From assembly GCF_011075055.1 (NCBI RefSeq), contig NC_058154.1:6926620-6990619 (forward strand): a stretch of DNA of 64,000 nucleotides. Reading direction: 5' to 3'. The position numbers and the translations under genes were made by a program. Each line of letters opens with the position of its first letter. Position 1 is the first letter of the stretch. The notes below the pieces were generated by a model. That model worked only from the letters and a program-made list of their open reading frames with translations. It ran no database searches and was not told where the DNA came from. This stretch comes from Mangifera indica (taxonomy: Eukaryota > Streptophyta > Magnoliopsida > Sapindales > Anacardiaceae). Positions 12,768-36,923 of this stretch are shown piece after piece.

Positions 12768-15700
12768 TCACCACCCTGAAAGAGAGATGATTTGATGTCT
12801 GACTGCAAAGGCTAAGCCAAGGATCAAGAGAGGTACGAGAAACTGTAAAATCTTAATCACAAACTCAGGAGTCTTGTCATGATTGTATGCAGGCTGCTCT
12901 GGTGGGATGTAAAACTGTTTCAGAGGAATGGTTAATGCATCAATATCACCAATGTAGTACTTCTGCATCATCACCCTTGCGGAATCACTATGACCCACAT
13001 CTTCAAAATCATTTGTCGGATCCTTTCCTGCAAAAAGTTGCACAAAATACACACACACACACACACATATATATATATGTTTATATAAAAGTCGAGGCCA
13101 ACAGGTACGGCAATTAATGACTTACCAGTTGCAGATAGCAAAACTTCATCCCCACCAGGATGGTTATCCATGAATGGTGTCACATCAGACACCTACATGA
13201 TGAAAACTTAATTGAAATGTTAGTATAAACTAAAATTATTGTGTTATAAGCATTTAAATTGTCATCAATTTTTCCCATGTCCAAAATGTTAAGACAAAAA
13301 ACACTGGGAACTGTTAACTGGTTGTCCTTGTGAAAACACATAAAACTCACTGGTATACGAAATTTTTGATAATGTCAATCAATGCATTTGGTTTAGAAGA
13401 CCTAGAAAATTTTTTTTCTTATTCTTGATACCATCAAAATGATGAGTTTCTGTGATTTTAACATGCGGCCATGTGTAGTCCACTGGCCAACATATATTTA
13501 TCATAGGCAGAAAAGATGGAGAGTAAGACTTAAGAGGTTAGCAAAATTGATAGAGTATTAAAATTTTTAGAGAAAAAATATGAATTCAAGTCTCTATCAT
13601 ACTTATAAAACCTTAACTTACCTCGTATAGTGATTGTAAATTCGATTATTATATTTCAAGGTTGATCCTTCCAACTAATTCAAATAAAGTTTCTCAGTTA
13701 ATCAAAAAATAAATAAATAAATACGAAGAGTAAATCAATAGTAATTATATAAATGGATGTTATGTGGCAAGATTATTCCAGGTGAAGCAATTGCTTACAG
13801 TCTTCCTCCAAAATATTATCAAAATTTTATTAAGCTTTTACTGTGAATTTTGAAACGAACTTACAGGAAGTGAGTTCTTATGCCAAATAGTTAGTACTAT
13901 GTATGACTATATCAAAATAATTTGAGGAGGTGAAGGGAGGTCAACTTAAAAAAAAAAAAAAACTATAAGCTTTTCTGTATTTACAATTGTGTCCTTTATA
14001 TTATTGAACAATTTTATGCTATAAAATGTATTTCCAATATCCATGAACAAGTAAGCAAACGACAGAGACAAACCAAGTGAGGGAGACTCATACGTGTTCC
14101 TTAGCTGCTCACCCCTTTTTCCGCAACATCATCAACCCTCCTCCACCTTCATTTCATATTGTTGTTCAGTTATTCCTTCAAGTATAAATTTCATCCCTTC
14201 TTGTTATTTTCACTGTTTTATTGGACTGAATTAGGGTTTGGGTTGAATTGGATTGCTAATGTTTTGTTTAAATTTGATTTTTGGACTGTTTGTGGAGCTT
14301 GTTTGTTTAGGGAGTGATTGTTTCAAAGAACTTATTTATTTTGGGTTATTTCCTGATTGTTTGTAAGCTGTTTGACGAAAAACTTGTTTGAAGTTGGAAT
14401 AATATTGAGCTTAGGGTGTTTGTGATTTTGTGTTGTGTTACTGTTACCCACTAACCCATCCATCTGTTTTGATTTAATAAAGCTGCATTTTCTTTTAAAT
14501 AGCATGTCTTCTTTGTTATGTTAATGAATGTATCGCATACATCTGTATTGCATGGAAACATTGCCAATAGAGGGTTTAGAAGTTTTCGAAACATTTCTGA
14601 AACGGAACGGCACAAGTACGAAATGTATTGGGGCCGTTTGTGCGAATTCAAAAAAATGTTGAAACACATTTCTATTTCCCATGCAACAAAAACACATTGT
14701 TAGTTTTGGAAACATGCTTCTTTGAATTAAAAAAAAAAAAAGATTAAAACATTTACAAATAAACCCCCATGTTTTTCGGGATCTGAGTTGTCTAAGTAGT
14801 CTTGTTTTCGTTGAATCAAATGAAAGTAGCAAAGGCTAAAAATGAGTTGGAATTAGAGTTTGTTGAGTGGAAGTGTTCCTATTTATTATACATTAATAAT
14901 TTCTTAGGTGTATAATGAAGTGTCATTGTGATCATCACAACCTAATATTTACTAATACACATGATAGAATTGAACATTTGCAATAAACAACTAGTACACA
15001 TAGAAATACACATTTTTATTAAGAAAAAAATACAAATAAGAAGTATGATGAACAAGTATATCATCACTACATATTTATTAATACGCATAATATAGTAAAA
15101 GGAGATTCCAACAAGATTATAAATAATTGGACCATAAGCTCTAGAGGGAATATTTTAATCAATGCCTTTGTCTACCAAATGTAAAGGGTTATTCAGTTAT
15201 TTTCTTAATTCTTACTATTTTTTAGGATTAAGCTATCTCAATTAAATTAAATTAAATTTTATTTTATTGTTTCATTAGAACAAATTAGTTTCTTGTTATG
15301 TCTATAATTTATTTTTATTGCATTTTCTTTATTAAGTAATAATATATTGTTGTTTTGAAATAGTATGGAAAGTCAACAATGATTTTATCATTTGAACAAG
15401 AAGATAATATTGATGATTCAAATAAAAATGTAGAGGTCAACTTGCGAGATCATCCTATGAATATAGGCTTACAAATCTGTATTACAGATCATGATCCTAA
15501 TATTCAATATCAAATGAGAAGAATTTATTAGAAAAGGGATCCTTGTAACCCTAAAGGCCATGAGTTTCATTTTTGAGATTTTGGTGGATTTTCTAGATGA
15601 TTAATTGTTTTATGGTTTAATGAATTTAATCAATGGTTAGAATATAGCATAGCAAAAGATGCAATTTTTTGTCTTTGTTGCTATCATTTTAAGCTAGATG

Positions 15701-18700
15701 TTGGTGAAAAAGGGGTAGTGTCAAAGGTTTTCAAATTAGAAAAAGAAAAAAATTTTGAATGTTCATATTGAAAGTGCTAATACTGCTTATAACCAAACTT
15801 GAAGATTATGTGAACTATTATTGAATTTTATAGACACTTCTAAAGCATGAACCAAGTATCAAACTCATTTAAATGCTTCAGTTGATTGTATTAGTTTTCT
15901 TTTAAGGCAAAGACTAGCATATCATGGTCATGATGAGTTTCTATGATTTATTGTTGATCACAATGAAGAAGTATAAAAATGATGTTGATTTTAAGAATAC
16001 TCTTGATAATCTCAAATTAACATCACCTATGATTCAAAAAGACATTGTAAGTGTTGTTTCCAATAAAACTATAAGTGTTATCATTACAAATTTAGGAGAT
16101 TCTTTATTCTCTATATTAATTGATGAATCTCATGATATCTCTACAAAAAAATAAATGGCTATTGTTTTGCGTTATATTAACAAGAATGAACTTGTTATAA
16201 AGTGTTTCCTAGGTGTTAAATACATTACAAGTAATACAACATTCTCACTTAAGACAACACTTGACAATTTTGTTTTCTAAGCATAGGTTGAGTTTTTCTA
16301 AAGTGCGAGTACAAGGTTATAACGAAGTTATTAATATGCGAAGAGAATTCAATGATTTGAAAACATTAATTTTAAAAGAGAGTAGATATGTTTATTGTAT
16401 TCATTGATTTGCCCATCAACTCTAGTACACTCATGTGGCTTTAGCAAATAACCAAAATGATATTAATGATCCTTTTAAAATTGTGGTGATTATAATTAAT
16501 ATTGCTAGCACTTTATTAAAACATTGTGATATCTTTAGAAATAAACACACATACAAAGTTATTGAAACACTTTCTAATAGAACACTTTCAAGTGGAAAAG
16601 GTCTTAATCAAGAGATAAATTTGAAGCGTGTCAATGATACATATTAGGACTTGTATTATGGTTAATTAATGAGCATAACCTTGTTGTTTTCATCGATTAT
16701 CAATGTTATTAAAATTGTAGCAAAAGCTAGGACAAACTCTAAACAAAGATTTCAAGCAAAAAAAATATTGAAATTGTTGCAATCAATGGCTTTATGTTTA
16801 GTCTAGTTTTGATGAAGGGATGTACTTGGCTGTATAGATAAGCTTTCTCAAGCACTACAAAGAAAATATCACGATATTGTAAATAATTTGGTTGAAGTGT
16901 GTAGGCAAGCTTTCCAAATGATGAGAAATAGTGGAAGGAAGACTTTACTAAACAAATTTTAACTTGTGTGTGTCAATTATGACATTGATGTTCCAAATAT
17001 CGATGATAAATTTTTTATTCAAAGGTGATCGCAACATAAGACTTAAAGTATCCCAAATGTGCATCATTAACGCATTAAAGTATTTTATAGTATCCTATAT
17101 ATGCAACTTCAAGAGTTGAATAATCATTTCAATGAGGTAAATATGAATTTCCTTATTTGTTTAATATGCTTATGTGCAAATAAAATTTTGTTGCTTTTGA
17201 TAAACAAAAATTTTTGCGTCTTGGTGAACTTTGTCTAAAAGTTTTTTCTAATTTAAAACTTATGACACTTGATTCTCAACTTGATGTTTACATTTTAAAT
17301 ATACGCTTTAATGTCAAATTTATGGGACTGAACGAGATTAGTGATCTTGCAAAAGTCATAGTTGAAAGTTAAAGGCTTAAGTGTTTCCATTAGTTTATTT
17401 GTTGATGAAATTAGCATTAATTTTATTAGTTACCACTACTAGGGTAAAGTGACTATTTTCAACTAGTGATTGACCCAAAAATGAAACTTAAAAGGGTCAA
17501 GCTTACAATAACACAAATATATTTTAAATTAAAATAAGCACAAATATTCATATTAATAAAACATTCATTAACTACATTTATAATTATTTTCGATATGATT
17601 TCATCTTTTAAAAACATTATATAGTGACTTCATTATCAATACTATCAAATACATCTTTTTTATATATACATAATTAAGCTATCATTCAACTATTGCTTAT
17701 TGATTCTATTTCGCAAACGATTTTCACAAAAATCATTGTTGAAAATGCTCACTCTACACTAATAGTGGCAATTGGATAAAATCAATGTTAATTTCATAAA
17801 CAAATAAACTAATGAAAACACCTAGTCCTTCTTACTTTCAACCATCACTTTTGCAAGATCTCCAATCTCGTTCAGTCCCATAAATTTGATGTTAAACATC
17901 AAGTTAAAAATCAAGTATCATGAGTTCTAAATTAAAAAAATCTTTTAGACAAAGTTCATCTCCTTTTTAGGTCTGGACAGGTTATTATAAAATTTTTCAT
18001 CTCATTTTCAATGAGGTTTTCTTCTTCTTCTTTAAATCATAGCTTCACAAAAATGGTGTCTATTATGTCTCTTTTGACTCTTCATTTTCTTTAACATTTT
18101 TGTTCTTCACCTCTTTCAACTAGTAAAATAATGGTTGAGTCGGCGAGTCGATTTTGTATGTCAAAGTTCACTGAAAAGTATTAACAGTTCAAGTTGATGG
18201 TAAGGTAAATCTTAACATCCTCCTCGTGGACTCTGTCAGTCATCTTTTCTCTTGTAGTAGTTTCTCCCTCTTTCTATGGTTTCTCAACCCTCACAATTGG
18301 TAGAGGCATTACCTCTCTCATCGGTGAAGACTGAGATAGAGAAGTGTATTGTTCCATCAGTGCCTTCCTCCTTTCGTAAGTGTACCATCCCTCATGATTC
18401 ATCATAATCTCCCTCAGTTCCTAAAGGTACTTGTCATAGTCACAAAACCTTTTTCTATGTTTTCCATTTGCACATTCATAATTCTAACTTCTCCACACCA
18501 CTGAATTGTCCCCTTATGACTTCTATGCGCTTCTCCAATCCTTCTACTTTAGTCTCCAGTCTCATCATAGTGTTGATGCCAAATGTCAAGAACCCAACAA
18601 GGTTTTGATTCTCAACCCAAACAAATGGAAAAAATTGATAGAAAATAGAAAGATTAGTATTGATGGTTAATTTTGATGAGGTACAATGGTTTACTAAAAT

Positions 18701-21700
18701 GGAATAACAAAACACTCATTAGTCAATAGTTCAAGAGGTCAAATCTTTCTTGAAAATTCTTAGTGTTCGAAAGGTTAGGTGCTCTCCTTTTCAATTGGAG
18801 CTACCCAAAACTTTTCCAAGAAATTTTTTTTGGCTCCTCTTAAGCTTCATTCTCCTTTTTGCTTTCTTTCCACTAACTACAATGATTTCATTTGCCACGT
18901 GTCTACAATTTTCAAGTGATCCTACCTTCACCTTGCTTTTGTGTTGTGCCATTTTATGTTATGCCATTATGCGTCATCCTAACAGTTTATCAACAATAAC
19001 AAAATTTTCATATGAACATAAACATGTTAAACAAATAAGCAATTTCATGTTTATCTCATTGAAACAATTATTCAACTCTTGAAGTTACATATCTAAGATA
19101 CTATAAACTGCTTCAATATGGTAATGATGTACATTTGTGAAATATTAAGTCTTGCGTTGCAATCACCTTTGAATAAAAAAATTATCATCCATATTTGGAA
19201 CATCAATGTCATGATTGGCATAAAAAGGACAGAATTTGCTTTAGTAAAATCTTCCATCCATTTTTTTTTCATTACTTGTAAAGTTTATTTACACGCTTCA
19301 ACTAAATTAGTTACAACATCTTTATCTTTTCTTTGTAGCGCTTGAAAAAGTTCATTTGTAAAGCCAACTACATCATTAATTAGAAATAGACTAAACACAA
19401 AGTTAAATGATTACATCAATTTCAATATGATTTTTGCTTGAAATCTTTGTTTAAAGTCTATCTCATCTTTCGCCACAATTTCAAGAACATTGATAACGGA
19501 TGAAAACAATAAGATTATATTCATTAATGAACCACAATGCAAGTCCTAACACGTATCACTGACATGTTTCAAATTTGTCTTTTGATTAAAATCTTTTCCA
19601 TTTGAAAGTTCACTATTAAAGAGAGTTTCAATAACTTACTTATCTCTAAGAATATTGCAACAATAGTATTAACTATAATCGTCACAATATTAAAGAGAAC
19701 ATTAATATCATCTTGTTTCTTTACTAAAGCCACGAGAATTAACTAGAGTTAATGGGCAAAACAATGAATATGATAAGTATATCTACTGTATTTCAAAATT
19801 AATATCTTCAAACCATTAAATTCTCTTTACATATTACAAGATTCATCATAACCTTGTCTTCACACGCTAGAAAAACTCAATGCACACCTAGAAAAAAGAC
19901 TATCAAGTGTTGTCTTGACTGAGAAAATTGTAGTACTCGTAATATGTTCAACACCTAGAAAATGCTCCACAACAAGTCCGTTTTTGTTAACATAATAGAA
20001 AACAATAGTCATTAGTTCCTTTATAGAGATATCACGATATTTATTAATCAATATCGAGAATAAAGAATCTCCTAAATCTCTAATGACATCACTTATAGTT
20101 TCATTTGAAGTAGCACTTACAATGTCTTTTTGAATTATAGGTGATGTTAAATTGAGATTATCAAGAGCATTCTTGAAATTAACATTATAAACATCTTCAT
20201 TATGATCAACAAAAAATTGTAGAAACTCGAGAAAATTCACTTAGTTGTTTAAATTATAGAATTCATCATGACCATGAAATGCTAATCTTTACCTTAGAAG
20301 AAAACCAACACAATCAACTATAACATTTAAACGAGTTTGATACTCAATTCATGATTTAGAAGAATGTTTGTCAAAAAATGTCTAAATATGTAGTTTTTGA
20401 TTCAATAATGATTCACACATTCTTTGAGTTTGATTATAAGGATTATTAGTGCTTCCAAAATGAACATTCAATTTTTCTTTTTTCTTTTTTCTTTTCCGGT
20501 TTGAAACCCTTGGCCAACAAAGCAATCACTACCCTTTTATCACCAATGTTTGGCTTTAAAAGATAGCAACAAAGACAAAAACAAATGTGTCTTTCATTGT
20601 ATTTTATTCTAACCATTGATCAAATTTATTAAATCATGAGATAACAAATCGTCTTGAATATTGATAGGATCCTAGCCAATTATTCTGCCAAATAATTGCA
20701 ATTACACAAACAATAAAGAGAATAGAAAAAATTTTTATTGATAAAAGGGTTTACAATGGGTAAATCAAAAATTCGAGAAGTGAAAACCTCTAATTTCTGG
20801 CCATTCAAGGACACAAAGAACTCTCAATCGACCTAAGAGGTTGCCCACAACCTAAGCTACCTAAAAGACAATACTTTTCTTCTCTCCCTGATTCCACCTC
20901 ATGCTACCCCTTTTATTCCCTCATATCCTAAAATCTCATCCTAATTAAATCCCTTGATTCTCTCAAACTATTTCAATCATAATGTTATCATAATTCAAAT
21001 TCAGTTATTTCCAATCCTATCATAATCTTATATCATAATCTTATCATAATTTTTAATTATAATTTCAATTATTTTATAATCCTACCATTTCCTGCCCTTT
21101 TTAAAACTACCTTGTCCTCAAAGTAGGTAAGTTGGAAAGCTCTCTTATTTTTTTTTTCTTATCTTACTCTTAAGCTTTGTTTCCTTTCCCTTTCCTTTAT
21201 GCTTCTATGCTTCTTCCAATTACAACTCGTCTTTCTAACACCATATCTCACTCATTTTCCCTCTCTTTTGTCAGATCTCATTGCTTTAATACCATTTAAT
21301 AAGATCCTAGCCAATTATTCCACCAAATAATAACAATTACACAAACAATAAAGGGAATATAAAACTTTTTATTGATAAAGGGGGTTTAAAATGAATAAAC
21401 CAACAATTTGAAGAGTTGAGACCTCCTATTTCTGGCCATTCAAGGAACCAAAGACCCCTCAATCTGCCCACAACCTAAACTGTCTAAAGACAACATTTTT
21501 CTTCCCTCCCTGACTCTTCCTTATGTTGTCCCATTTATTCCCTCATATTCTAAAATCTTATCCTAATTAAATTCCTTGATTCTTTCAAACTAATACAATC
21601 ATAATGTTATCATAATTCAAATTCAATTATTTCTTAATCCTATCAAATATCCGCCAAAATCTCTAAAAGGAAAGTTATGGTTTTTTGGTTGGCATAGACC

Positions 21701-24700
21701 CTTTTCAAATATATTTTTCTAATTTGATCCTTCAGGGCTGTATGCTTGTTGACATAGAACAAGTAACTCCCATCAAAGGATATACTGAATAAAAGATACA
21801 AATGTTGTACACTTGAGCTTTATAACGAAAATCTAGATATTCGGTCAGACTATTTGGAATGGTTGGGAGTTGAAAAGTTGCTTAACGCAGTGCAAAAATG
21901 TAACATCCCTCCCTAGAAGTACTACCCACCGAAGGAGAAATGTTACGAATTAATATCCAGAGCGTCCATTTTTTTTCTTTTAAAAATATTTTAAAATGAT
22001 CGTATCGCTAAAAGTATTTAGAAAGTATTCTAAGAAAACTGAAAATCTGGAAACGAACAAAAGATGTATATACTCATATGAAAAACTCATTTGAAAGCAT
22101 CTGAAAATACGGAGTAATCATATACAACTGTACAATCATCCCAAAAAGGTCCAAAAGCAATAAGAACATGCGACTGTATGCATATAATATAAACCAGAGA
22201 TAACCTACTCCAGCTAGATCTACCTACGCTGACCTGACCTTGCCTCGCAGCTACCTCGATCACCTGTACTTGCAATCATGAAAGAAAAGGAAGTGAGTGA
22301 TAAGAACACTCAGTAAGGGGAAAAAATTAAGTAAACTATCTCATTTCTTGTTCTAACTCACTCTCGAGACTCAACCTCACCCACAACCCCTATAAGAAAT
22401 TGAGGGGATAATCTAGTTCATGTTTTACTGTTTGGGTCATACTTTATCCCATCTGGTGTCTATTTGATACTTTCTGGAAGCTGACTATAGAGATTTGACA
22501 CTTTTCTAAGCTTGAGCTCTTTTCCTTTCTCTCACTACACTATTTTTGAATCTGAATTGTGCTCTACTACGAGCATGCTCTACTGCGAACGAACCCTACT
22601 GTGGGTCTATGTCCTGCTACAGACGTGTCCTACTACGGACGTACTCTACTGCGGGCGGTGTAGTGTAAAGTGCCCCCTCATAGTTTATAGCATGCATGCG
22701 AGCTTATATCTTACTAATTTTGCTTCCATCTAAATTTTTTTCATAACTCACCAGACATTACTCTTGGGATGACCCCTGAATCTTGAGTCCCAAATTCCTT
22801 TTCTTACTTTTCTTTCTTTTTCTTTCTTTTCTTCTTCTTTTCTTTTTTTTTTTTCTCCTTTCTTTCCTTTCCAAAATTGTGAAATACTGTTCACAGCCCT
22901 ATTCATTTGACAGGGCAGCTTTCTATTTTATACAATTTCACAATTCAAGCGGTGTCTAATTCATACAAGCTATATATCATTAGAAAGAGAATTCAAAGCG
23001 CTTTCCCACAAGCTATAATAGCACTCATAATTTATTAGATAAGGCAATTAAAACGTGAAATGAAATCAGTGGCAAAAACTGACTCCTTTGTTTATTTGAT
23101 AAAGCAGACCTTGTGGTTCATATAATATTTAACAGTCCAAATGATCCCCAATTTATACAAGCTATATATCACTGAAAAGAGAATTCAAAGAGCTTTCCAA
23201 CAAGCTATAATAGAACTCATAACTCATTAGATAAAATAGTAAAAATGTGAGATGAAATCAGTGGCAAAAACTGCCTCTTCTGTTTATTTGGTAAAGTAGT
23301 CCTTATGGTTCATACAATATTTAACAGTCCAAATGATCCTCAATTCATACAAGCTATATATCACTGAAAAGAGAATTCAAAAAGCTTTCAAACAAGCTAT
23401 AATAGCACTCATAATTCATTAGTTAAGGTAGCCAAAACATGGGACGAATGTAATGGTAAAATTGTAAATATTATGCAACTTTCTGCCATGGACACAATCA
23501 CACACATAGACATCCCAAATGGCAAAACAGTATTTCTCAACTTCAAAATCATCATTCATAACATAGATCCAAGGAACTAAAAGCCTAAAACATGCAACCT
23601 ATCAAGGTTGATACCTCTTTACCTTGTTTCAAGTCAATCTTTGTAAGTTGGCTCCCTTTTCTTTGTTTTGCTTCCTTTATCACCAAAATCACCTTAAATC
23701 AACATCAAAACATACTAACATATTCATATAACATGCATCTAATATATATATACATAGGTAAAGGGAAAAAGAAGAGATATTTTGGTTACCAAAGCTCCCA
23801 AAGTGCTTCCTTTAATTTTCTTTCCTTATTTATCTTCCAAAAGCCTTCCAAATCACAAACTTTTCTTCACAAATACAACAAAAGCAAGAGGGAAGCTGCC
23901 TCCTTATGGAAGAGACAGAAGAATGATGGAAAAAATATATGAGATGCCTTTTTTGACTTTTCTCTCTATATACTAAGCTTTATCTCTTTTGTTTTTTAAT
24001 TTCTTTATATATATCTATATATATATACATATATCTATTTGGAAATATCTCCAAACAGGGTCAAAAGACATAAATGCCCCTAAAATGTACCTAAGGGTAT
24101 TACAATAAAGCCTTGAGCCAAGGTTGTACGTGGATACTTTGTTTTATACCAACTTAGATAATAACCATAGAAACCAGAGAATTAAAAGCGAGGAGTATAT
24201 GGCTAAATAAGGTAGAAGCTGTTATAGGATATTAGTACAGAAAATCCCAGAATCCAAACGAAATTGAGATCTCTTATTCCTTACATCATCCTGATTAACT
24301 AAGAAATGGCTGACGAAGGAACTCTTAAGTAGTTTGCAACTACTGTTCAAAATAAATATCCTAGTTTACCTCTTGGTTATGCAAATTTTGTAGCTCAAGA
24401 GTCCCAAGGTGATTGGAAAAAAGCTAAAAACTTGTATCTGAAAGCGATAAAAAAAGAATACTTTGTTTCAAAAGAAGAAAGGAAAAATAAGGTTGACCTT
24501 TCAAAAATCTCTTTTTTTGATGTCAAAAAAATTAGCAAATATTACAAAAAAAAGTCTAAGGAGCAAAGGAAAACTTCTAATAAGGGAAAAGTTAAAAAGA
24601 TTTCTCTAGAACCAAAAATGGAAGAACTAGAAAATCTAATCCTAATTTAAGGGAAACCGAAATTAGAAATGATCCTCTAGAAGGAATAAAGAATCCTTTA

Positions 24701-27700
24701 CATTCTTTTAAAAGATTTCTTCATGAAATCTCTAAACCTGAATGTACCTCTACATATAAATTGGTGTAACTAACTTCTAATGGAAGTTTCCTAAATAAAT
24801 TATGTAAGCAATATAGCGGAAGCAATTGAAATTTGAGAAACTGTAAACTAGGTCCATATGCAAAACAAAGCCTTTGACCTCAGACAAACTTACCAATTTT
24901 TAAAATCTGCACAACACGATACAACATGAAGCTATTGGTTAAGATTAGAAGCAAGTATGAGAGTATTAGAAATGGTAAATGACTTAAAAAGTTGCAAAGG
25001 AATATTTGCGCTTTTTAAGGATATACTCTCAAGGGAATTCACTGGTATAATTATTACTAGTAGGGATTTCATAGATGTAATTGCTCTAGAAGCAATAACA
25101 AAGCTTCGACCTTATGACATATGCCAACTTGAAAAGTTAATTTGTGAATACACACAATATTTCTATCAGTTATCTAGTGGAACACAAGAAGTTATGAGGA
25201 ATACCTTGTTTGTAAAGTTACCACATGAATGGGACAAAACTTCTAGTGAAGCTTTTAAATTACTTATAGAAAATAATCAAATTGTTGATTCTCTTAGAAG
25301 AAGGATAGAGGCTGTAAGGCATCTTATTCGAACAAGGTGTCTTATTGCAAAGTTTGATAAAGATACTAAAAAGCTTTATTTTAACGATGCTTATTGCTAC
25401 AATTTTGATGGAGTCTTAAGACAGTATGGATGTGAAAAACCGTCCTCTAAAATTGTAAAACATCAAAATTGGAAATCTCATAAAAAGCTAAGTACTTTTC
25501 TATGGAAAAGAAAATTTCCTAAACGCTTTAAAAACATGAGGAAGAAACTTGTTTCTAATAAAACTAAACTTCCTAATCATGGAAGGTTTATTAGAAAGGT
25601 GATTGCAAAAGAACGAGGAGCAAGAAAATTTTGTGCTACTTGCCCTTCGAGAAAAAAACGCTAAGGATTATAATTGTTGTTGGATATATGGCATCAAAGA
25701 TCACTACACAGACAAATATCCAAATAAAAGTAAAAGGAAGGAAAATATTAAATTCTTAAATGTGAATTTAAAATCTCAAATTTCTGAATATGAGTATGTA
25801 TTTAGATAAGAGGTTAACTCAAATGATGAATCAGTTTACAAACTGATTTTGAAATACTCTAATACTTCTAACTTAGAAGACTACTCTTCAGAAGAAGACT
25901 TAGAAAATGAAGAGGATCTAGTAAACTTGTCTAAGATAAACAAAGATATAACTTCTCATTGGATTCTTATGAATAGAGTTGAAAATTTAGATGAGCAATT
26001 GGATCTATTTCACGATGACGAGGAACTCATATCTTTGTACAATAGAGTTACTCCTAATTTGATAGTAAGTTCATCTACGATTTATGAGGATAATTCATCA
26101 AATCTAGATGAATGGGTAATTCCAAAATTAACTCCTCAACAGGTTTTTGGAAAAATCTCTAAATAGATGTTTAAAGCTTATAGACTAGAAGATGTACATG
26201 AGAAACTTGTAGCTCTTACTCAATCGAACGAATGAGAAATCATTCTTTTGAATAATGAATGGCTACTCAAGGTACGTGAACTTGTCAAAAGATCAAAAAA
26301 CAAGTATCACTATGTACAACTACAAGTTGTACAAGTACATGTATAGGGGCTATTTTGAGGAGGTATGAATGTACCAGTCTAGGTAGCATTGTTAGACAGG
26401 AGATGGTTAATTTTCAATAAAGCTTTAGTTGGCGGTTTTCATGCTAACTTGGTTTTGGGTGATTCTTATGAGACTATCAAACTAGGATATATGGTGAGCC
26501 TTGTGGATCTAAATCTAAAAAGGATTGTAACACTTTGAATTCATGCATCTAGACTAGAAGACCTATAGACTCTAATTCTTTTATAATAGAGAGTGATACA
26601 TAGAATTATTATTAAGGAGCAGTTCTGAAAGCCAATGGCTTTGATAATATCGAAAGAATAGTCCGATATGCATCAAGAAAATTCTCACCTGCTAAAATAA
26701 ACTATTCTGTTTATGGAAAGAAAGTTTTAGAAGTAAAAGAATTTATTGACCAATTTCGATTACTCGTTATCAGTCAGGAATTTACTTTAAGAACTGATTC
26801 TAAATATTTGACATCATTCATGAAATTAGTCTTAAAGGATAATAAAATTAGATTAATCAGATGACAAATCTAGTTTGTGGAATATCGTTTTAAGATTGAA
26901 TTTATATCTGGAAAATCTAATTTTGTCACTGACTTTTTGTCTAGACCATTGCAAGATAATGAACAAGATGGATCAAACTAGAAAAAGGTTTTCATGCTAC
27001 AATGTAAATCAACAACTCATTTGAGGCGTAATTGCCTTTCCAAGAAGAATGTAATAATGCAGGAAATGGACAAGAAGGATCAAACTAGAAAAAGGTTTTC
27101 ATGTTGCAAATGTAAATCAACAACTCATTTGAGGCATAATTGCCCTTCCAGGTAAATGTAATAATACAGGAAAAGCCAAAAATCTGACTTTTCCTACATT
27201 ATTACATTCTTCCTTGAAGGGCAATTATGCCTTAAATGAGTTGTTGATTTACATTTGCAGCATGAAAACCTTTTTCTAGTTTGATCCTTCTTGTCCATTA
27301 TCCTGCAATGGTCTAGACAAAAAGTCAATGATAAAATTAGATTTTTTAGATATGAATTCAATCTTAAAGCGATATTCCGCAAACCAGATTTGTCATCTGA
27401 TTAATCTAGTCTTATCATCCTTTAAGACTAATTTCATGAATGATGTCAAATTCTTAAAGTAAGTTCTTGACTGATAACAAATAGTCAAAATTCATTAATA
27501 CATTCTTTTGCTACCAAAACTTTCTTTCCATAAATAGAATAGTTTATTTCAACATGTGAGAATTTTCCTTATGCATATGGAACTATTATTTCGATATTAT
27601 CAATGTCCTTGGCTTTCAAAAAGTCTCCACAATAATAATTCGATGCATCACTCTCTATTATTAGAGAATTAGAGTCTATAAGGAGTGTTAATGTCTTAAG

Positions 27701-30700
27701 GTTCTAAGTCAAGTTTTTAGTCTGGATAACATAGTTAGTATCCTCTATAGTCCATGACCATGGTACTTTAGAGCTAACCTTCTTTATTAATTCATTTATT
27801 ACCTTACCCAAATTTGGGACATATTCTCTTATTTGGTTCACAAATTCAAGAAATTATTGTAACATATGCTTATCTTCAAGCATATTAGGAAATTCCAACA
27901 GTTTCTTTGCAATGTGATCTTGGAGTTAGATTCCTCATTCTCCAAATTCAACTCCTAAGAATTCAATCTTAGTTTGGAACCAGTCTATTTTTCTTTCAGA
28001 TAAGACTACTCTGTGTTTAAGGAATTTTCTAATTACCTGTTCTAGATGATTCTTATGTTTTTCCCTAGTTTTGCTAAAAACTAGTACATCATCTACATAA
28101 ATAGCACAGAAACTAGATAAGTCGAAAAAGATTGTATCCGTTTTCCTTTGGAATATGGTAGGTGCTTGTTTTAAACCAAACAACAACACTAACCATTCAA
28201 ACAATCCTTTTGGGTAGGTAAATGTCATTACAGGAATGTTTTGCTCTGCCATCCTGATTTGCCAAAATCTTGACTTCAAATCAAAATGTGAGAATATTTT
28301 TCCAAATCTAGCTTTGTTTAGCAAAGCTGATTTGTTAGGGATTTTGTATGCATCGTCTATAGTTTTGCTAGTTAGCTACCTATAGTCAATTACCATTCTA
28401 GCTTTTCCTCTCATTTGCTCAACTTTATTCATTACCATGAAAGCTAGAGAAGAATGAGGGCTATTGCTTTCTTGAATTAATCCTTTTGATAACAATTGCG
28501 GAATTTGCTTTGTCAATTCCTTCTTTGTATCAGGGGAGTATTTATGAGATTTTGATTTTACTCGATCATTGAGATCTCATAATTTTATTTTTGGAAATAC
28601 TCTATTCCTTTCCTATAATTTTAATGATAAATCATCAAAACATCAAGAAAGTTCCTTTTTAAATTCTTTCAAGAATCCAAGACTTTACGTGACTATCATT
28701 TTTCAATATTTTATTCCTCTCTATTATTTTATCTGTGTTGTTAAGGCATGTACCAAAGGCTTGAGCCTCTTACGATCTACCTCATGCGATTTGGTTGATA
28801 TGATTTTGAGGATTAAATTTTTGAAAATTCAACTGATATGTCATTTCATTCCTATTGAATTTAGGAGACTTAATCTACCATTTCTCTTTAGGTTTAATGG
28901 AGAATATAATGTGTTCCCTTTCAGGTTATAGTTTCTTGGGCCTAAAGCCATTTTTGACTTTAGAGAGGTCTGGCCTTGCTAGAATAGGAATTGTATGTCC
29001 TCCAAGAATAATATAATCATTATCTTGGATAAACAGTCTCACTTCCAATTGTCCTCATAGAAATGAGTTTCCAAGAATGAAATTTATTTCTAAGTAATCT
29101 AGTAGTAGGATTTCCCTTAGAACAAATTTCTTCTTGTTTAACAATATGGTCATATCTTGGGCATACTTTGTGATCATATTTTGTCCATCATTTGTAATAG
29201 TGTTCATAATCAGTTTTTCAAGTTCCTTCCACATCTCTGGTGGAAAATAGAACTTTCACGTGATACACTTTGTTGCTTTTGTGTCTACAAGAACATCTAA
29301 CGTATAAGTTTCATATTCTAGAAAACAAAGTTCCACTATAATACAAGTATCGATTGTTCCTTGTACTAATGCATGACAATGAATTTTATGGTTCATTATC
29401 ATTTGCGTAGATGGGGTTTCATCTTCATATACAGAAATTTGTACAAACCTATAACAAATTACTTTCCTTTGGGAAGTACTTCGAGAAATACCAGAAATAC
29501 TTTATATTTCTTCATTGGTTATATTCTTTTTTTCTTGTATATTAGGTGTTTCACCAGTAGAGATGATTATTGACTTCCTTTCAGAGAATGACCTTCAAGG
29601 AGTAGGTCAAGTTATTTTAACCTGATCACCAATTTTCTCGATTTTTATTTCTTAAGGGTTGAGTTCTAAGTTCACCATGATGGGTTGCAGAGTGAAAGTT
29701 AAAACCCAATTCCTAAGCCATGTTAATTGCCTATGATTAACAATAGATAGGGTTATAGGAATTACCGAGTTAGACCCTGGGCCATGAACTTCAGTGTGGG
29801 CTCTGGAGTTCATTGATATTGGATTGACCGAATTAACCAATTGGTAAATCATCCGATATTGTATTGTTATTCCTTCACTAGAGTGTTAAAAGTCTTCTAG
29901 GCCAGATTATGAATTCGGAGTGTCATAATCCTTTTCAAATTTGGATCCTTAAGCCTCGCCATATATCCTGGTTTGATAGTGCCATAAAAAAGGCTCATCA
30001 TATATTTCTTGCAAATCATTACATCATTTAAAACAAAGAAGGTCTACTTTCGGTTGCTTGACTAACTCTTCTTTCCTTTTTTACAAAGGCATTGCCATTG
30101 AGTAAAACATTCCCTCCAGAGCATATGTATGTCAAATACCTCCTTGTATTTTTATTCATTTCATACTGAAACTCCTATAAACTCAAATTGTGTATTTTTC
30201 AAAAACTATTCTAATAATAATAATAAATCTTCACAAAAAAGACTAATTTTTACACAATTCTTTAAAATAATCCCCATGTCCACCATTTTGAGAAAAAGTT
30301 CAAAAAGTGTAGACCATAGAGCAGTTACAAACATGATAATAAAACTTGACAAAAATCACATAGCCAAATAATTCACTTTTCCAATCTACATAATATCTTA
30401 AAAAGCTCCATCACAATATGCAAGGACGAATATTAAATAAAAGATTTAAACCAACAATTTAAGACTTTAATGTGAAGAATATAAATTGCAGTAAATCTGA
30501 ACCATTATTGAGAATATTCATATATTTTTATAAATTTACAGACAAGTCATCCGAAACTAAATGTCAACTATAGGAAAACGATTTATCACAAATCATTCAA
30601 AATTGTTTATTAGTAATAAAACAGAATCACAAATCAATCAATCAACATTGATCTGATTCAACTCAACCAGTCAGAGGTCAAATACGTATCAATCATAAAT

Positions 30701-30851
30701 ATAATAATAAAAAGCCAAAGGAAAAAGAAAATAAAATAAAACGATTCAAATATGAAGATTTGACCTTTCCAGAAACAATAAGCCAACAGTCCTTGGTTTT
30801 GTTGTGCTTTACGACCTTTTCAAATGTGTAGATATTTGAATCTGAAGCCAT
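12768..30851 (-). CDS. Cytochrome b5, tail-anchored; three coding exons, 17.6-kb first intron
   Basis: This encodes a small haem protein that passes electrons to membrane desaturases, hydroxylases and P450s. It is held in the ER (or mitochondrial outer) membrane by a C-terminal anchor and faces the cytosol. Exons are 30851-30765 (29 codons, from the ATG), 13192-13126 and 13027-12768. All introns use GT-AG and the phases join, giving 137 residues, the usual plant length. The haem-ligand histidines are both present: His40 in HPGG and His64 in DVGHSD. The motif KDCWLIVSGK spans the end of exon 1. A hydrophobic segment at about 107-127 is the anchor. Odd points: Ser31 replaces the usual Tyr after SGKV, the last residues (QIISLSGW) differ from the basic tail usual in plants, and the first intron is full of transposons. 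Splice signals and frame are intact, so I treat it as a gene, but expression is unproven. Confidence 0.82.
13049..13079 (+). repeat. (AC)n-(AT)n compound microsatellite in cytochrome b5 intron 2
   Basis: An (AC)n run passes straight into an (AT)n run. It sits in the 98-bp second intron (13028-13125). Confidence 0.95.
13200..15360. other. Intron stretch without gene
   Basis: Mostly AT-rich. From about 14100 to 14300 the plus strand looks like a plant 5' UTR (pyrimidine-rich with CTCCTCCACC, then TTAGGGTTTGGG), but no coding exon follows. From about 14520 to 14710 there are repeated GAAAC/GTTTC words (for example TTTTCGAAACATTTCTGAAAC), which look like transposon subterminal repeats. The 5' flank of the following hAT copy probably begins near 14900. 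Confidence 0.4.
15361..17460 (+). pseudogene. hAT-type transposase with TTF zinc finger and DUF4371, copy A
   Basis: This relates to the ZMYM1-like (TTF-type zinc finger / DUF4371) hAT transposases of plants. The order is as in the family: an N-terminal segment at about 15480-15530; a WLEYSIAKDAIFCLCCYHF segment (TTF finger) at about 15635-15690; DUF4371 from about 15920, with NLKLTSPMIQKDIV and LGDSLFSILIDESHDIS; QGYNEVINMRREFNDLKTLI at about 16310-16375; and a core extending to QLDVYILN at about 17280. Many stops and frameshifts interrupt it. It ends near 17460, before the hAT dimerisation domain. Copy B (17580-21800) has the same content on the other strand, so the two form a large inverted repeat. 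Confidence 0.85.
17961..18983 (-). mobile_element. Truncated LTR retrotransposon: LTR, primer site and start of gag
   Basis: On the minus strand a 400-bp LTR (18983-18584) starts TGTTAGGATG and ends CTTGACA. It is followed by two bases and TGGCATCAACAC (18581-18570), a degenerate version of the initiator-Met site. A short gag-like start follows, reading MMRLETKVEGLEKRIEV. The element stops at 17961, where the hAT copy resumes. The hAT sequence on the two sides is nearly continuous with copy A (17150-17240), apart from a gap of about 15 bp. There is no second LTR and no target duplication. The gag start suggests Ty3/gypsy, but too little is left to be sure. Confidence 0.65.
18584..18983 (-). 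repeat. LTR of the truncated element
   Basis: 400 bp, TGTTAGG...TTGACA in minus orientation, with a primer-binding site two bases inside its inner edge. Confidence 0.6.
20662..21087 (-). repeat. 3' LTR of the TRIM-like element (426 bp)
   Basis: It differs from the right LTR mainly by an extra stretch of about 77 bp near its TG end, which looks like an internal duplication of ATTATGATA-type words. Confidence 0.8.
21297..21645 (-). repeat. 5' LTR of the TRIM-like element (349 bp)
   Basis: Its start on the minus strand is TGATAGGATTA. Its inner end has the terminal CA mutated to TA (21297-21298 on the plus strand read TA). It is followed by the primer-binding site at 21294-21283. Confidence 0.8.
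22562..22660 (+). repeat. 16-17-bp minisatellite, six units
   Basis: Units start at 22562, 22578, 22595, 22612, 22628 and 22644, with the approximate consensus TCTACTACGGACGTG. The array is GC-richer than its surroundings. Confidence 0.85.
22798..22872 (+). repeat. Pyrimidine tract (TTTC-rich)
   Basis: Almost uninterrupted T/C run with TTTC and TTC repeats. Confidence 0.9.
22950..23445 (+). repeat. 192-bp tandem repeat, about 2.6 units
   Basis: The marker TCATACAAGC TATATATCA recurs at 22961, 23153 and 23345, exactly 192 bp apart each time. Each unit also has AGAGAATTCAAAG and AAGCTATAATAG. The first two units are full length; the third breaks off near 23445. Confidence 0.9.
24957..25664 (+). 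pseudogene. Caulimovirid capsid-like open segment
   Basis: This is the longest open piece of the viral remnant (235 codons). It is internal to a larger broken frame that starts at 24306, so the ATG at 24957 is not a natural start. The end is rich in Lys/Arg, as in pararetroviral capsid proteins. It is followed in another frame by a zinc knuckle that has lost its last Cys position and is one frame out. The call rests on this layout and on the movement-protein and RNase H remnants downstream. Confidence 0.6.
26964..27175 (+). repeat. Tandem duplication (107-bp period) holding a CCHC knuckle-like motif
   Basis: Two copies begin at 26964 and 27071. Each follows the RNase H remnant and carries a Cys-rich motif. 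The second reads CCKCKSTTHLRHNC, a C-x2-C-x5-H-x4-C knuckle. The first copy has lost its middle Cys position. A third copy lies on the minus strand across the palindrome centre. A zinc knuckle after RNase H is not part of the usual caulimovirid layout. Confidence 0.7.
27071..27291. repeat. Palindrome centre joining the two viral arms
   Basis: The left arm (27071-27175) and right arm (27187-27291) are near-perfect reverse complements around an 11-bp spacer (27176-27186). The arms continue outward as diverged inverted RNase H remnants. Confidence 0.85.
27187..30128 (-). pseudogene. Endogenous caulimovirid fragment, minus-strand arm (movement protein end, protease, reverse transcriptase, RNase H)
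   Basis: Read from 30128 downwards it holds the C-terminal part of the movement protein (about 30120-29890); a second region without a clear domain (29852-29652); a protease-like stretch (about 29350-28950); reverse transcriptase (about 28560-27935), with the catalytic YVDD inside the open segment 28324-27935; RNase H; and the zinc-knuckle tail ending at the palindrome centre. Capsid is absent. The open segment also shows the fingers/palm block with FDLKS and FGLKQAP. Several stops and frameshifts lie outside it. With the plus-strand arm it covers most viral domains, but both arms are defective. Confidence 0.78.
30129..30764. other. AT-rich intron sequence, no gene
   Basis: No coding signal on either strand. 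This is probably original cytochrome b5 intron next to exon 1. Confidence 0.55.
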
Positions 30852-30863
30852 TTTTCACTTCTG

Positions 30864-31160
30864 CTAAACACAGCATTACCAAAAGAAAACTCAAAAAATT
30901 AATTTTATATACAAAATCGATATAAGACATGGGAAAAAAATCACTATAACAGCCAAAAGAGAAAACCCTGAAATAGAAAGATAATGAATTGAAGATCAAA
31001 CGAAGTGAAGAATCTACTATTCACTTACGTGTTGTAAGCAAAAGAATTTGGTCTAATTCTCTCTTTGTTGCTGTCAAAGACTGTCAAGCCTAACAAGCAG
31101 CATTCGTTGCGATCTCCTTGTTTTGTGCAAAGTTCAGTTACCAATGCAACTCTCATATTT
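30864..31160 (-). promoter_or_regulatory. Putative 5' UTR with intron, upstream of cytochrome b5
   Basis: On the minus strand CAC|GTAAGTGAATAG (exon edge 31029) is a strong donor, and TGTTTAG|CAGAAG (about 30864) an acceptor just before the ATG. The DNA from about 31029 to 31160 would be the 5' UTR exon. The chromovirus starts at 31278, so little original promoter remains next to it. No transcript start can be read from sequence alone. Confidence 0.4.
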
Positions 31161-31277
31161 CTTATTAAGACCATTCAGTCCTAAGGTTTGAGTTCTGGTC
31201 TTCACGACATGGGTTGTTTAGTGAAGGATATTTTGTCTTTAAAAGTAATTAAATTACATTTGCCATTACCTCAATTA

Positions 31278-31697
31278 TGATAAACACTGATATAAATTCA
31301 CACAAGACAACAAGAACCAAGGAAATTCTAGAGAAAGAAAATAGAGTATACAGAGAACCAATAAGGAAGACAATGAACAATATTATTTTTCATTCCGTCT
31401 CCAAATGGTTACATGCACTTTTAAAGGGATTCTTCCACAACTAATTAACAGCTCATAACAACTCATAGCTGGATACAGCCACATCAGCTACCTTTTTTAT
31501 TCTGCGGTAATAATTTATTTAAAACCAAATTAAAACTAATTCAAATAAAATCCAAAACGCAATGCAAATGACGATATAATATTTATAGCTATAGAACGAC
31601 ACCGTCTGGTTTACTGAGCTATGCATTCTGATCAACTTCTTGATCGTTAACAAGTGACGTCATGTTCGTTCCTCCTGGTTGATTCAAGTTCATATCA
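31278..31697 (-). repeat. 3' LTR of the chromovirus (420 bp)
   Basis: It contains a 10-bp extra stretch (near 31448-31461) absent from the other LTR. It is the LTR nearest to cytochrome b5, and its transcription direction is towards that gene. Confidence 0.93.
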
Positions 31698-31742
31698 ACA
31701 TTCCCCCCTTCGATTGCCTTGACCTCAAGGGAGAAATGAGGA

Positions 31743-34700
31743 AAGTGTCGTCTCATTTCTTATGCAAATTCCCAAGTTGTGGCAGCCTGCGAAAATCCTT
31801 CCCACTTTACTAACACCTGAGTAGCTGCAATGTTATGACGCTTCACTATTCGTCGATCCAGAATAGCCTCAAGAGTACAATCACAGATGGGAATCATACA
31901 TGGCAAAGTTGGCAAAGCCTGTATCTGTGCGTACATAGGTTTGAGCTGAGAAACATGAAAGACATTGTGGATGTCAACATCAGGTGGTAGTTGAAGACGA
32001 TATGCTATGGCGCCTACTCTGTCTTGTATCTGGAAAAGGGCCATAGTACTTAGCTTGAAACTTTGGATGGCCTCGGTGCATGGTTTGTTGACGGTATGGT
32101 TGTAGTTTTAGATAGACCCAATCCCCAACTGAAAATTGTCTCTCTGTTCTTTTCTTGTTGGGTGCTGCAATCCGATAAAATGACTATACTTTGTGAGCCG
32201 ATCAACTACCACCAAAATGACAGACTTACCTTGCGATTTAGGAAGGCCCTCTACGAAATCCATTGTTATATCTGTAAAAACCCTAGTAGGAATAGGTAAA
32301 GGTTGTAAGAGACCTAGGGATGCTATATTTTCAGGTTTAAATCGTTGACATATCGAACACCCCCTGATGAAGTTTTTGACATCTTTCCATAGACCCTTCC
32401 AATAAACAATTGAGCTTAATTTTCTTGTTGTGACAATGATTCCAGAATGGCCACCCATGGTAGAACTATGAAACAATGCAATGAGATTATTTCGTAAAAT
32501 AGCATTTCGTCCTACCACATATTTTCCTCTTCGTTGTAGCTTGTTGTTGTTCCAAGAATAATGTTCATAGCTGTTGGGATTCTGTTGTTTTGCCTTGATA
32601 ATAGACTGGAGAAGCTCATCTTCAGTCCATGTTTCTTCCACCCTACGTAGAATTTCAGAAGGTAGCAAACTAGAGATTAAGCAGTTGATTTCCACTCCAG
32701 GTAAGCATGATAAGGCATCGTAACTAGATTCTCCTTGCCCTTCTTATAAATGATATCGTAATCAAATTGCATGAGTTTCGCAATCCAGGCTTGGTGAGTT
32801 GGTGTGGTAACCCTCTGCTCTAGAAGGTGTTTCAAACTCTCATGATCTGTTTTTATGGTGAAATGATGATTAACCAGATAGGATTCCCATTTTTTTATAG
32901 CAAAGAGGATAGCAAGCATTTCTTTTTCATATACTGAAAGTAGTTGATTCTTGGGAGATAAACCTTTGCTAATATATGCGATTGGGTGTCCCTTTTGCAT
33001 TAATACAACTGCAATTCCATCTCCACATGCATCGGTCTTTATCAAAAATTCTTTTGAGAAATTCGGGAGGGCCAAAACTGGAGTGGTAATCATGGCCGTC
33101 TTAAGCCTTTCAAATGTCTCTTGAGTAGTGTTGCTCCAATGGAAGGCATTGAATTTGAGTAGCTCTAGTAGTGGTCGGGCTAGATGTATACCCCTGTACA
33201 AACTTTCGGTAGTATCCTATCAAGCCAAGAAATCCTCGTAGTTGCTTCACTGTTTGTGGCACAGGCCAATTTGCTACAGCGCTAATTTTTTTAGGGTTTG
33301 TTCTTACTCCCTCAGCTAAAATTATATGGCCCAAGTAGGTAATTTCCACACATCCAAATGAACATTTACTCCTTCTGGCAACTAACTGATTTTTTCTCAA
33401 TAACTCCAGCACCTGCCTTCAGTGTTTAAGATACTCTTCTTTGTTTTTACTGTAAACCAATATATCGTCGAAAAATACCAAAACGAACCGTCTTAAACAA
33501 GTCTTGAACACTGAGTTCATTAAGGCTTGGAATGTCGATGGTGCATTAGTCAGGCCAAATGGCATGACAACAAACTCATAGTGTCCCTCATGAGTTTTGA
33601 ATGCGGTCTTCTCAATCTATTTTGGATGCATTATGATTTGCCAATACCCTGATTTGAGATCAATTTTTGAAAATATTGCAGCCCCGCCCAACTCGTCTAA
33701 GAGTTATTCCACCACTGGAATGGGATATTTATTTTTTACAGTTGACTTGTTAAGACTCCTGTAGTCGATGCATAAGCACCAAGAGCCATCCTTCTTCTTT
33801 ACTAACACTACCAGGCTTGAGTATGGGCTGCTACTAGGTCTGATAACTCCTGATTCTAGAATTTCCTTCACCATTTTCTCAATAATATCTTTTTACAGGC
33901 TGTTATGTCTGTATGGTCTCAAGTTGATTGGCTGGACGTCATTTTTTAAAATAATCTGGTGGTCATGTGTCTGTGAGGGAGGCAGTCCCATCTGATCATT
34001 GAAAACATCTTGAAATTGTTATAAGAGCATTTCTAGTTCTGGTCACTCTTCGCTACGTACTTCTCCAGTTGTATGGATCATAGACAGCTCCATTTCTCCT
34101 GGTTGCATAATTAATTGAACCGATGCTAGTTGTTGATCCCTCTGCAATAATTTCAGCAGCTGAATATTATTAATAAGAGCTAGCTCATTGTCTCTATGAC
34201 CTTGCAACAACCTATGCTGCCCGTTTTGTGTAAACATTATCCGTAGCTCTTCAAAATTCCATAAAATATCACCTAAAGTTGCCAGCCATTAAGCCCCTAA
34301 AATCAAGTCATAGTTGGCAAGTGGAAGAATGTAAGCATCAACCGTAAATTCCTGTCCTTGAGCCCTCCATGTAAAGCCTTCACATAGTTTATTACACTGT
34401 AAATGTTGCCCATTAGCCACCCGAACCTTGGTTCCTTCCACTGACACCATTGCACAACCTAGTTTCAGAGCAGTCTTCTCACCTAATAAGTTGTGAGTGC
34501 TGCCTGAATCAATTAGAATATATATAGGTCTCCTTCGATGTAATCTATGCAGCCTCATAACTCTTGGTCCTGCAACCCCATTGAGCGCATTTAAAGAGAG
34601 GTGCATCAAATTGGTTTCCTCGCCTCCTTCATTCTTTGTTAAACTCTGGTCTGCCTCTTCCTCTTCTCTAGTGTCAACCTCTAATTAGAGGGTATACAAT

Positions 34701-35701
34701 TGTTTCTTCCTACACCTATGGCCGAGAGAATATTTTTCGTTGCACCAAAAACAAAGGCCTTTGGCCCTCTTCTCGTCAAATTCTTTACTGGTCAAAGGTT
34801 TGTTATTTCGTGGTGGTTGTGTGTTTTACAATTTAGATATATTTGGAGTAGGCAACAAGCCTGGTTGTGAATTTGGTTTCGGGTTTGTGTTTGGGGTGGA
34901 AATTAATGCATGAGGTGATTGAGATAGACCTGAATTCTTGGAAAAGTGAGTTGCTCCCAGTGGCGATGGCTTGGTGAATGGTTTAGGTTGTCCTTTCATG
35001 GCGGACATTATAAGCTCTTGTAGTTTAGCCAAAGCATATGCCTCTGCTAGGCTCTTTGGTCGGAACATGCGAATCGGCATCTGAAGTACATTAACTAACC
35101 TAGATAAAAAGAAACTGAGGGTTTGGCCTTCTGTGATACCAGCTCTTGGATGTAATTCATCGAATGCATCTAAGTAATGTTGGAGAGAACCAGTCTGTCG
35201 TAAATTTCGAAGGTCCGCCAAAGGGTCATCATAACCATGAGATCCAAACCGAGCATTTAGAAGGTGGACATATTCTTCCCATGTTATAGATTGGATTTCT
35301 CTGGACTTGATTAATCCTTGATGCCATTGGATAGCCCTTCCATCTAAGTGTAGCGCAGCTAACTTCACTCGATTCTCTGGAGAAGTTCCATCCACTTCAA
35401 AAAAATATTCAGCATGAAGAAGCCAATTGTCAAAGTCATCTCCAATGAATTTTGGAAACTCCAACTTGGTGGATCTACCCCACGTCAACTTCTGAACTTC
35501 TCCTGAAGAGGTCCCCTCCCTTGTCATCTCTATCATTTGTTGCTTAGTGACAATCTCAGACTGTTGCACACTTAACCCTCCAATCAAGTTCTTGATCTCA
35601 TCAATGGAATCTTTCAACAATTGTTATTGGTAAAGCTCAGATTCCTGTACCAATTGCGCTAATTCTCGGCGAAGCTCCTGACTTCGGGTACCATCAACCA
35701 T
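31743..35701 (-). pseudogene. Chromovirus gag-pol, lightly broken, integrase core deleted
   Basis: The start is the ATG at 35701, eight codons inside the element after the primer site; one in-frame TAA follows near 35626. Gag runs to about 34830, with a zinc knuckle near 34790-34750 (CFWCNEKYSLGHRC). The protease active site is IDSGSTHN (DSG at 34510-34502). Reverse transcriptase spans about 34000-33200, with FFDD at 33472-33461. RNase H (33200-32680) includes IKTDACGDG. Integrase begins with its HHCC finger (GGHSG ... CSICQRF) and ITMDFVEGLP. It then jumps near 32110-32040 straight to its C-terminal part, so the central catalytic residues are missing. The end has a chromo-like VLVKWEG ... 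TTWEF. It is not an active element, but its LTRs could still be transcribed. Confidence 0.9.
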
Positions 35702-35714
35702 ATTTCAGATCGTT

Positions 35715-35726
35715 GCTCTGATACTA
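35715..35726 (-). other. Primer-binding site of the chromovirus
   Basis: TAGTATCAGAGC on the minus strand, one base from the standard initiator-Met site, two bases inside the 5' LTR. Confidence 0.88.
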
Positions 35727-35728
35727 CT

Positions 35729-36138
35729 TGATAAACACTGATATAAATTCACACAAGACAACAAGAACTAAGGAAATTCTAGAGAAAGAAAATAGAGATT
35801 ACAGAGAACCAATAAGAAAGACAATGAACAATATTATTTTTCATTCCGTCTCCAAATGGTTACATGCACTTTTAAAGGGATTCTTCCACAACTAATTAAC
35901 AACTCATAGCTGGATACAGCCACATCAGCTGCCTTTTTTATTCTGCGGTAATAATTTATTTAAAACCAAATTAAAACTAATTCAAATAAAATCCAAAACG
36001 TAATGCAAATGACGATATAATATTTATAGCTGTAGAATGACACCATCTGGTTTACTGAGCTATGCATTCTGATCAACTTCTTGATCGTTAACAAGTGATA
36101 TCATGTTCATTCCTCCTGGTTGATTCAAGTTCATATCA
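35729..36138 (-). repeat. 5' LTR of the chromovirus (410 bp)
   Basis: It is about 97% identical to 31278-31697 apart from the 10-bp indel. The AATTA duplication follows at 36139. Confidence 0.93.
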
Positions 36139-36209
36139 AATTATGCCTTTCCTGGCCCACAAAAAATTGCGGAAATTGGGAAGTTTGGATTTTTGACCAT
36201 AAATTTTTT

Positions 36210-36923
36210 GCCAAAACCCAATGTAAAGAGAAACCCTAAACTTCTATCTTTCAATTTTTAAAAACTCAAACACTCACTTATAATTAAGTTTTTCTTAAAA
36301 ATCTTAACTAGAATAAGAGATTAAACCATCATTTAATTAAAAAAATTAAAAAATTAAAATTTTGTCACATTTTTCTTTCTATAATTAAAAAACTCACAGT
36401 TTTTTCTTAACTCAAAGTTTGAAAAGTGACAAATACCATCTACGATTTTTTCCTTTCTCTTTGACATTAATTCGCCATCTTTGGTTGTTAATCGTCCTCC
36501 CTCCTACCTTATCTCTTCTTTTGGTCTCTCCCTCTTCCCTCGCTGACAGTCTTTGATCGAGATGAAGATAATTTTGTCTTAGTCTTGACCAAAAAGGGAA
36601 GGAAGAGAGACCAGGAGAGAGAGATAAGGTATAAGAGAGGACAACCGACATTCGAAGATGGTGAATAGTAACTAAAGAGAAGAGGAACAAACTTTAAGGG
36701 TTATTTGTCACTTTTCAAACTTTGGGTTGGGGAAATTGTGAATTTTTTAAAGCTTGAGAAGAAATGTGATAAAACTTTAATTTTTTAAATTTTTTAATAA
36801 ATAATAGTTTCACCTCTAACCCTAACTAAGATTTTTAACAGAATTTTTTTATAGATAGGTGTTTAAGTTTTTAAAAGTTGGAGAATAAGACTTTGAGTTT
36901 TTAGAGAACAAGTCTTTTGGCCT
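36210..36923. mobile_element. Foldback MULE-type MITE, copy 1
   Basis: Two long inverted arms (about 36210-36450 and 36680-36923) start GCCAAAAC and end TTTTGGCC. The shared interior words include AAAGTTTGAAAAGTGACAAAT and its complement. The 9-bp sequence AAATTTTTT lies on both sides (36201-36209 and 36924-36932). Long inverted arms with 9-bp duplications are typical of Mutator-like foldback elements. It has no coding capacity. A related copy is at 47985-48636. Confidence 0.8.

Follow-up and report, generated by a model that had tools for sequence, protein, structure and literature searches.

A 64,000-nucleotide stretch of the Mangifera indica genome (contig NC_058154.1, here also C18, positions 6,926,620–6,990,619; hereafter the window) carries on its minus strand a cytochrome b5 gene whose three coding exons are spread over 18 kb by an intron of 17,572 bp. 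Coding exon 1 (30765–30851, with the ATG at 30851), exon 2 (13126–13192) and exon 3 including the stop codon (12768–13027) were read directly, and their 87, 67 and 260 bases (stop counted) join in frame with no internal stop to give a product of 137 residues. Intron 1 (13193–30764) opens with the donor GTCAAATC and closes with the acceptor end CATGTAG, upstream of which lies a CTAAC motif resembling a branch point, which we take to be the consensus; intron 2 is bounded by the donor GTAAGTCA and the acceptor end TTTTTGCAG. A further intron, GTAAGT ... TTTAGCAG, is predicted in the 5' untranslated region (UTR) at 30861–31028 on the same strand, with coordinates assigned by eye. The joined protein is identical over its full length to the public entry P0002, 'cytochrome b5-like [Mangifera indica]', and is already public as a mango prediction.

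The original prediction, made from the letters alone, had held that exons 2 and 3 lack a first exon that lies far away on the same strand, and this was borne out: the Pistacia protein matches 30851–30762 by tblastn across the window (E = 1.45e-12), the splice donor is present and the phase is right. A first exon closer to exon 2, which the prediction had named as the finding that would speak against it, was sought in the same way. Mango, Pistacia and Citrus proteins gave nothing at E < 1 in the window beyond the three exons, so a nearer exon 1 was ruled out, and the presence of introns rules out a processed copy. The prediction had also placed mobile and viral material between exons 1 and 2, where transposon and virus-like remnants were indeed found, and its suggested hunt for further full cytochrome b5 copies is answered by a compact twin on another contig, C1. 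Both histidines that it had counted as haem ligands, H40 and H64, are retained; we likewise take them to be the ligands. They belong to a protein with a Cyt-b5 haem domain (PF00173, residues 9–80, E 1.2e-25 by profile search). P0002 is the sole member of its 90% cluster, and its top relative among the matches listed (120 of 1,158) is P0004 of Pistacia atlantica, with 87% identity over 94% of the query. In the Citrus protein P0113, additional residues sit precisely where exons 1 and 2 meet, as though some intron 1 sequence had been taken for coding sequence; this agrees with conservation of the intron position.

Queried with the Pistacia protein, the mango genome yielded 29 exon-level matches. 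The C1 twin (C1:23,407,092–23,408,795) has a first intron of 1,215 bp, a second of 87 bp and the tail RHYTKKE, and in six more mango members of the family intron 1 measures 1,056–1,809 bp. The first intron thus spans 17.6 kb here versus 1.06–1.81 kb in the seven other mango genes measured, C1 twin included, a comparison that covers the closer of the 29 genome matches. The window gene and its twin are collinear from a point 436 bp before the C1 ATG to the 3'UTR, including both ends of intron 1; they share the promoter, the exons, all coding splice dinucleotides and the 5'UTR intron, whose splice sites are identical. This alignment allows the ancestral bases of intron 1 to be told from the inserts. 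A 5' ancestral portion (30193–30764) and a 3' ancestral portion (13193–13859, aligned in blocks 13859–13719 and 13485–13193 around an insert of ∼233 bp at 13486–13718), both on the minus strand, flank a main insert cluster of 16.3 kb (13860–30192), which replaces ∼250 bp of the C1 twin intron. Apart from the extreme length of its first intron, the locus is a duplicated plant gene of an ordinary kind.

Between the twins, dN is 0.071 and dS 0.356, with a dN/dS of 0.20 (pairwise, 129 codons), and the noncoding divergence K over the alignable blocks is 0.292. The recent mango genome duplication has been placed at Ks 0.3–0.4, about 33 million years ago (PMC7059373), a range that includes the dS of the twins and supports, by sequence divergence, an age for the pair similar to that of the genome duplication. 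The twins likely arose through that whole-genome event, although collinearity of the two regions was not confirmed within the stretches compared: 30 kb of C1 set against 264 kb of C18, the window's contig, yielded, besides the gene itself, one unidentified match of 84 residues at 42%, and one neighbor of the C1 gene had no match among 17 on C18.

The changes accumulated since duplication are fewer than neutrality would allow. For 129 codons, a neutral window branch is expected to have gained ∼41 amino-acid changes, 4.4 insertions or deletions (indels) and 1.9 stops, compared with 13–16 changes, no indels and no stops observed in the core; the probability of 17 or fewer changes under neutrality is 2e-5. 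Neutral decay ever since duplication was ruled out by this shortfall and by the indel-free core. The changes also shun conserved columns, falling in 3 of 62 such columns versus 14 of 67 others at a threshold of 0.97 (Fisher 0.0085), and across five thresholds P ranges from 0.002 to 0.12, with four significant; this test compares the window protein with that of Pistacia, to which a few of the 17 changes belong. These statistics favor retention of the gene under weakened constraint over neutrality since duplication.

The inserts in intron 1 are of several kinds. A hAT-like element is present as two inverted copies (15588–20661; arms 15588–17205 and 18985–20661) that are 81% identical where aligned. 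Its assignment rests on DUF4371, which we take as a hAT marker and which was found by profile search in pieces at 15918–16151 (+), 16213–16404 (+, below the cut-off) and 19863–20240 (−), with domain scores of E 6.3e-27 and E 3.5e-9. Elements of the hAT type have terminal inverted repeats and an 8-bp target duplication. Relatives elsewhere in the mango genome are 70–89% identical (40 of 74 candidates scored). Within the pair there is a second inverted repeat (17225–17958), and the segment 17193–18309 folds at −377 kcal/mol. Three copies of a 192-bp unit form a tandem array at 22929–23504. Of the virus-like pieces, a caulimovirus coat protein domain (PF22909) lies at 24930–25661 on the plus strand (E 1.8e-6, 28.7 bits versus a cut-off of 27), and a reverse transcriptase piece (PF00078, profile search) at 27938–28375 on the minus strand. 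Between these two is an inverted repeat (26564–27680) that carries an RNase-H-type piece at 26616–26861 (+). The reverse transcriptase piece and the inverted repeat are attributed to caulimovirids from their neighbors and from sequence motifs rather than from a tree.

This inverted repeat would form a 1.1-kb hairpin. Its arms of ∼500 bases are 86% identical overall and 91% identical across 250 central bases, and as gene-strand RNA it folds at −645.5 kcal/mol, compared with −194 to −230 for 12 shuffles that preserve single-base composition only. Seventeen intron segments of the same length, some of them overlapping this or another repeat, fold at −176 to −377. Copies of the arms elsewhere reach 85% identity; since the arms are scarcely more alike to one another, an origin by recent inverted duplication is unlikely. 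No second locus with two such arms opposed was seen, by eye, among 40 of 66 candidates scored genome-wide.

On the promoter side, a Ty3-type long terminal repeat (LTR) retrotransposon with a chromodomain occupies 31278–36138 on the minus strand (LTRs 31278–31697 and 35729–36138). It retains the LTR pair, gag-pol domains and a target duplication, AATTA, at 31273–31277 and 36139–36143, and 426 bases separate it from the ATG. The divergence between its LTRs, 12 differences in 410 aligned bases (K 0.030), set against the noncoding K of 0.292 between the twins, would date the insertion by simple proportion to ∼3.4 million years ago, if the twins are ∼33 million years old. The element has the same orientation as the gene, with its downstream LTR (31278–31697) aimed sense into it; by its position, this LTR might act as a promoter for transcripts into the gene.

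We consider it rather probable that the window gene has been kept as a duplicate under relaxed constraint and is spliced across its 17.6-kb intron. The sequences show the exons, the homology to the twin, where the inserts lie, the difference in rate between the copies and the shortage of amino-acid changes and indels; transcription, splicing and protein function are what we infer here. A duplication about 33 million years ago would have given two cytochrome b5 copies. That on C1 remained compact; in the other, transposons and endogenous caulimovirid fragments would have piled up in the middle of the first intron, expanding it from 1.2 to 17.6 kb and sparing the intron ends and splice sites. 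RNA polymerase II would read through the inserts, and the whole intron would be removed to yield a 137-residue, tail-anchored haem protein, with the window copy under weaker constraint than its twin and its C-terminal tail replaced.

A series of observations weighs against this account, and several of them fit a more recent death, in which inserts, heterochromatin or the upstream retrotransposon shut off productive transcription no more than several million years ago, the C1 twin suffices and decay has not yet reached the exons for want of time. Core amino-acid changes relative to the twin number 13 on the window branch and 3 on the C1 branch, with 3 ambiguous (polarized by Pistacia, with the distance split equally). 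With Citrus as outgroup, the window copy shows 18 changes versus 0 for Pistacia, or 13 without five tail positions, a figure that, like the age by proportion given above, is arithmetic on the analysis outputs; five other outgroups give 14–18 versus 0–1. The end branch measures 0.41 for the window copy versus 0.027 for Pistacia, in a tree of 115 rows that has 53 of its 112 forks open and a bootstrap short of convergence, and where row P0127 also reaches 0.41. For this tree, 15 of 130 proteins were excluded for a length outside 130–138 residues, for lack of an initial M, or for being P0037, a plant-like cytochrome b5 labeled Staphylococcus warneri on a 549-base contig, which is probably contamination. 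Near-invariant sites have changed: A55P alters a position occupied by A in all 114 other proteins, and Y31S one occupied by Y in 111 of 114. At the strictest threshold, conserved columns are not significantly avoided (1 of 27 versus 16 of 102, Fisher 0.12). The tail RHYTKKE of the twin has become RHQIISLSGW, in which QIISLSGW derives from sequence adjoining the former 3'UTR, and translation now stops in sequence that corresponds to the twin's 3'UTR; with the C-terminal residues and the original stop replaced, the exons are not wholly intact. Homology to the C1 promoter ends at 31265, just before the Ty3 element, so the promoter region has been cut by a retrotransposon whose estimated age would suit a recent loss. 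If the gene had been dead for only the final 10 to 20% of its history, its core would still be intact with a probability of 0.53 to 0.28, falling to 0.09 for 37.5%. Set against a recent death are the conserved columns avoided at four of the five thresholds, the core free of stops and indels, and the retention of all coding splice sites, and we regard it as a serious possibility but the less probable one. The original prediction had posed the choice as a gene either spliced across its inserts or silently dead with exons that look intact; that pair was a fair one, but the replaced tail and stop do not agree with intact exons, and the compact twin and the fast evolution of the copy could not be seen from the letters alone.

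Two further explanations carry far less weight. Exon 1 may have become uncoupled from exons 2 and 3, with transcripts from the promoter stopping in the inserts and any transcription of exons 2 and 3 starting in an insert. A raw count gives 43 AATAAA words in intron 1, which, as potential early transcript ends, also count against full-length splicing; LTR and viral fragments may, moreover, bring promoters with them. Independent decay of the two parts would then be expected, yet both show a low dN/dS (exon 1, 0.33; exons 2–3, 0.16; small numbers), and we hold uncoupling to be very unlikely. An assembly misjoin that moved the exons together or apart might be suspected in so repeat-rich an intron, but it was rejected because the ancestral intron blocks flanking the cluster are collinear with the C1 twin; in addition, the window contains no N, and full exon 1 matches at ≥77% in the mango genome occur only at the C1 and C18 (window) loci. 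It is the least probable of the explanations considered.

The replaced tail bears on the destination of the protein. The endoplasmic reticulum (ER)-type tail has Y or F at position 130, as in 93 and 21, respectively, of the 114 other proteins; the window protein has Q. In plant mitochondrial cytochrome b5 isoforms, the C-terminal region contains R-R/K/H-X (X not E), and an 8-residue tail was tolerated in one chimera (PMC4154396). The window tail starts R-H-Q and conforms to this dibasic pattern, but the normal start, R-H-Y, conforms as well and the window tail is longer, so a change of organelle is no more than a suggestion.

A further reading joins the hairpin to the fate of the gene. Firing of the promoter would produce an intron with 1.1 kb of double-stranded RNA from opposed caulimovirid fragments, which Dicer-like enzymes would cut into small interfering RNAs (siRNAs); the intron would be a source of siRNAs against related viruses, and the gene would be kept partly as an antiviral hairpin as its protein drifts, perhaps to another organelle. 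We think this joint reading improbable. If it were true, the intron of an ordinary gene would serve as heritable antiviral RNA. Among the titles listed in a literature search on endogenous caulimovirid intron hairpins and siRNA, none concerned such a host-intron hairpin, and a search on mango cytochrome b5 and introns listed no title on this gene. The twins amount to a natural experiment, being of equal age, with the same promoter and splice sites, and one with 16 kb of debris in its first intron; a comparison of their expression would reveal the cost of a large, insert-filled intron. If neither a cost to gene activity nor the siRNA reading holds, the locus would be a decaying duplicate.

Elsewhere in the window, a direct repeat (1–183 and 7151–7333, 91% identical and 7.15 kb apart) is perhaps the LTR pair of an element truncated at the left end of the window. 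An inverted repeat at 47971–48650 (arms 47971–48137 and 48484–48650, 80%) has a kin stretch at 36676–36879, with similar pieces also near the C1 twin, and an AT-rich tandem array of ∼59-bp units spans 51257–52001. Neither ARAGORN nor Rfam at gathering scores gave a match in the window.

The locus resembles several known systems. In Arabidopsis, long introns bearing heterochromatin are transcribed and spliced, IBM2 and EDM2 being needed against early 3' ends, and one locus was never rescued, perhaps since its intronic region exceeds 20 kb (PMC5364540). The mango intron likewise places silenced-type DNA between intact exons and, at 17.6 kb, falls slightly short of that length. Intronic caulimovirids are not rare: genes are overlapped by ∼9% of the florendovirus loci in grape, and 99% of these overlaps are in introns (PMC4241990). 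The mango pieces share with those florendoviruses their state as broken, rearranged caulimovirid sequence within a host intron and differ in that two of them are opposed in orientation and would form a hairpin. In tomato, inverted repeats of caulimovirids are a source of 22-nt siRNAs (Valli et al. 2023, cited from PMC10377300). Like the mango locus, they consist of rearranged viral sequence that can fold into a long hairpin as RNA, although the predicted mango hairpin sits within the intron of a protein-coding gene. Among its closest relatives, the ER-type proteins with three coding exons (C1 twin, Pistacia P0004 and Citrus P0022), the window gene is alike in its domain, haem histidines and hydrophobic tail region, with exon boundaries equal to those of the C1 twin, and is set apart by its 17.6-kb first intron, its quicker protein change and RHQIISLSGW in place of RHYTKKE.

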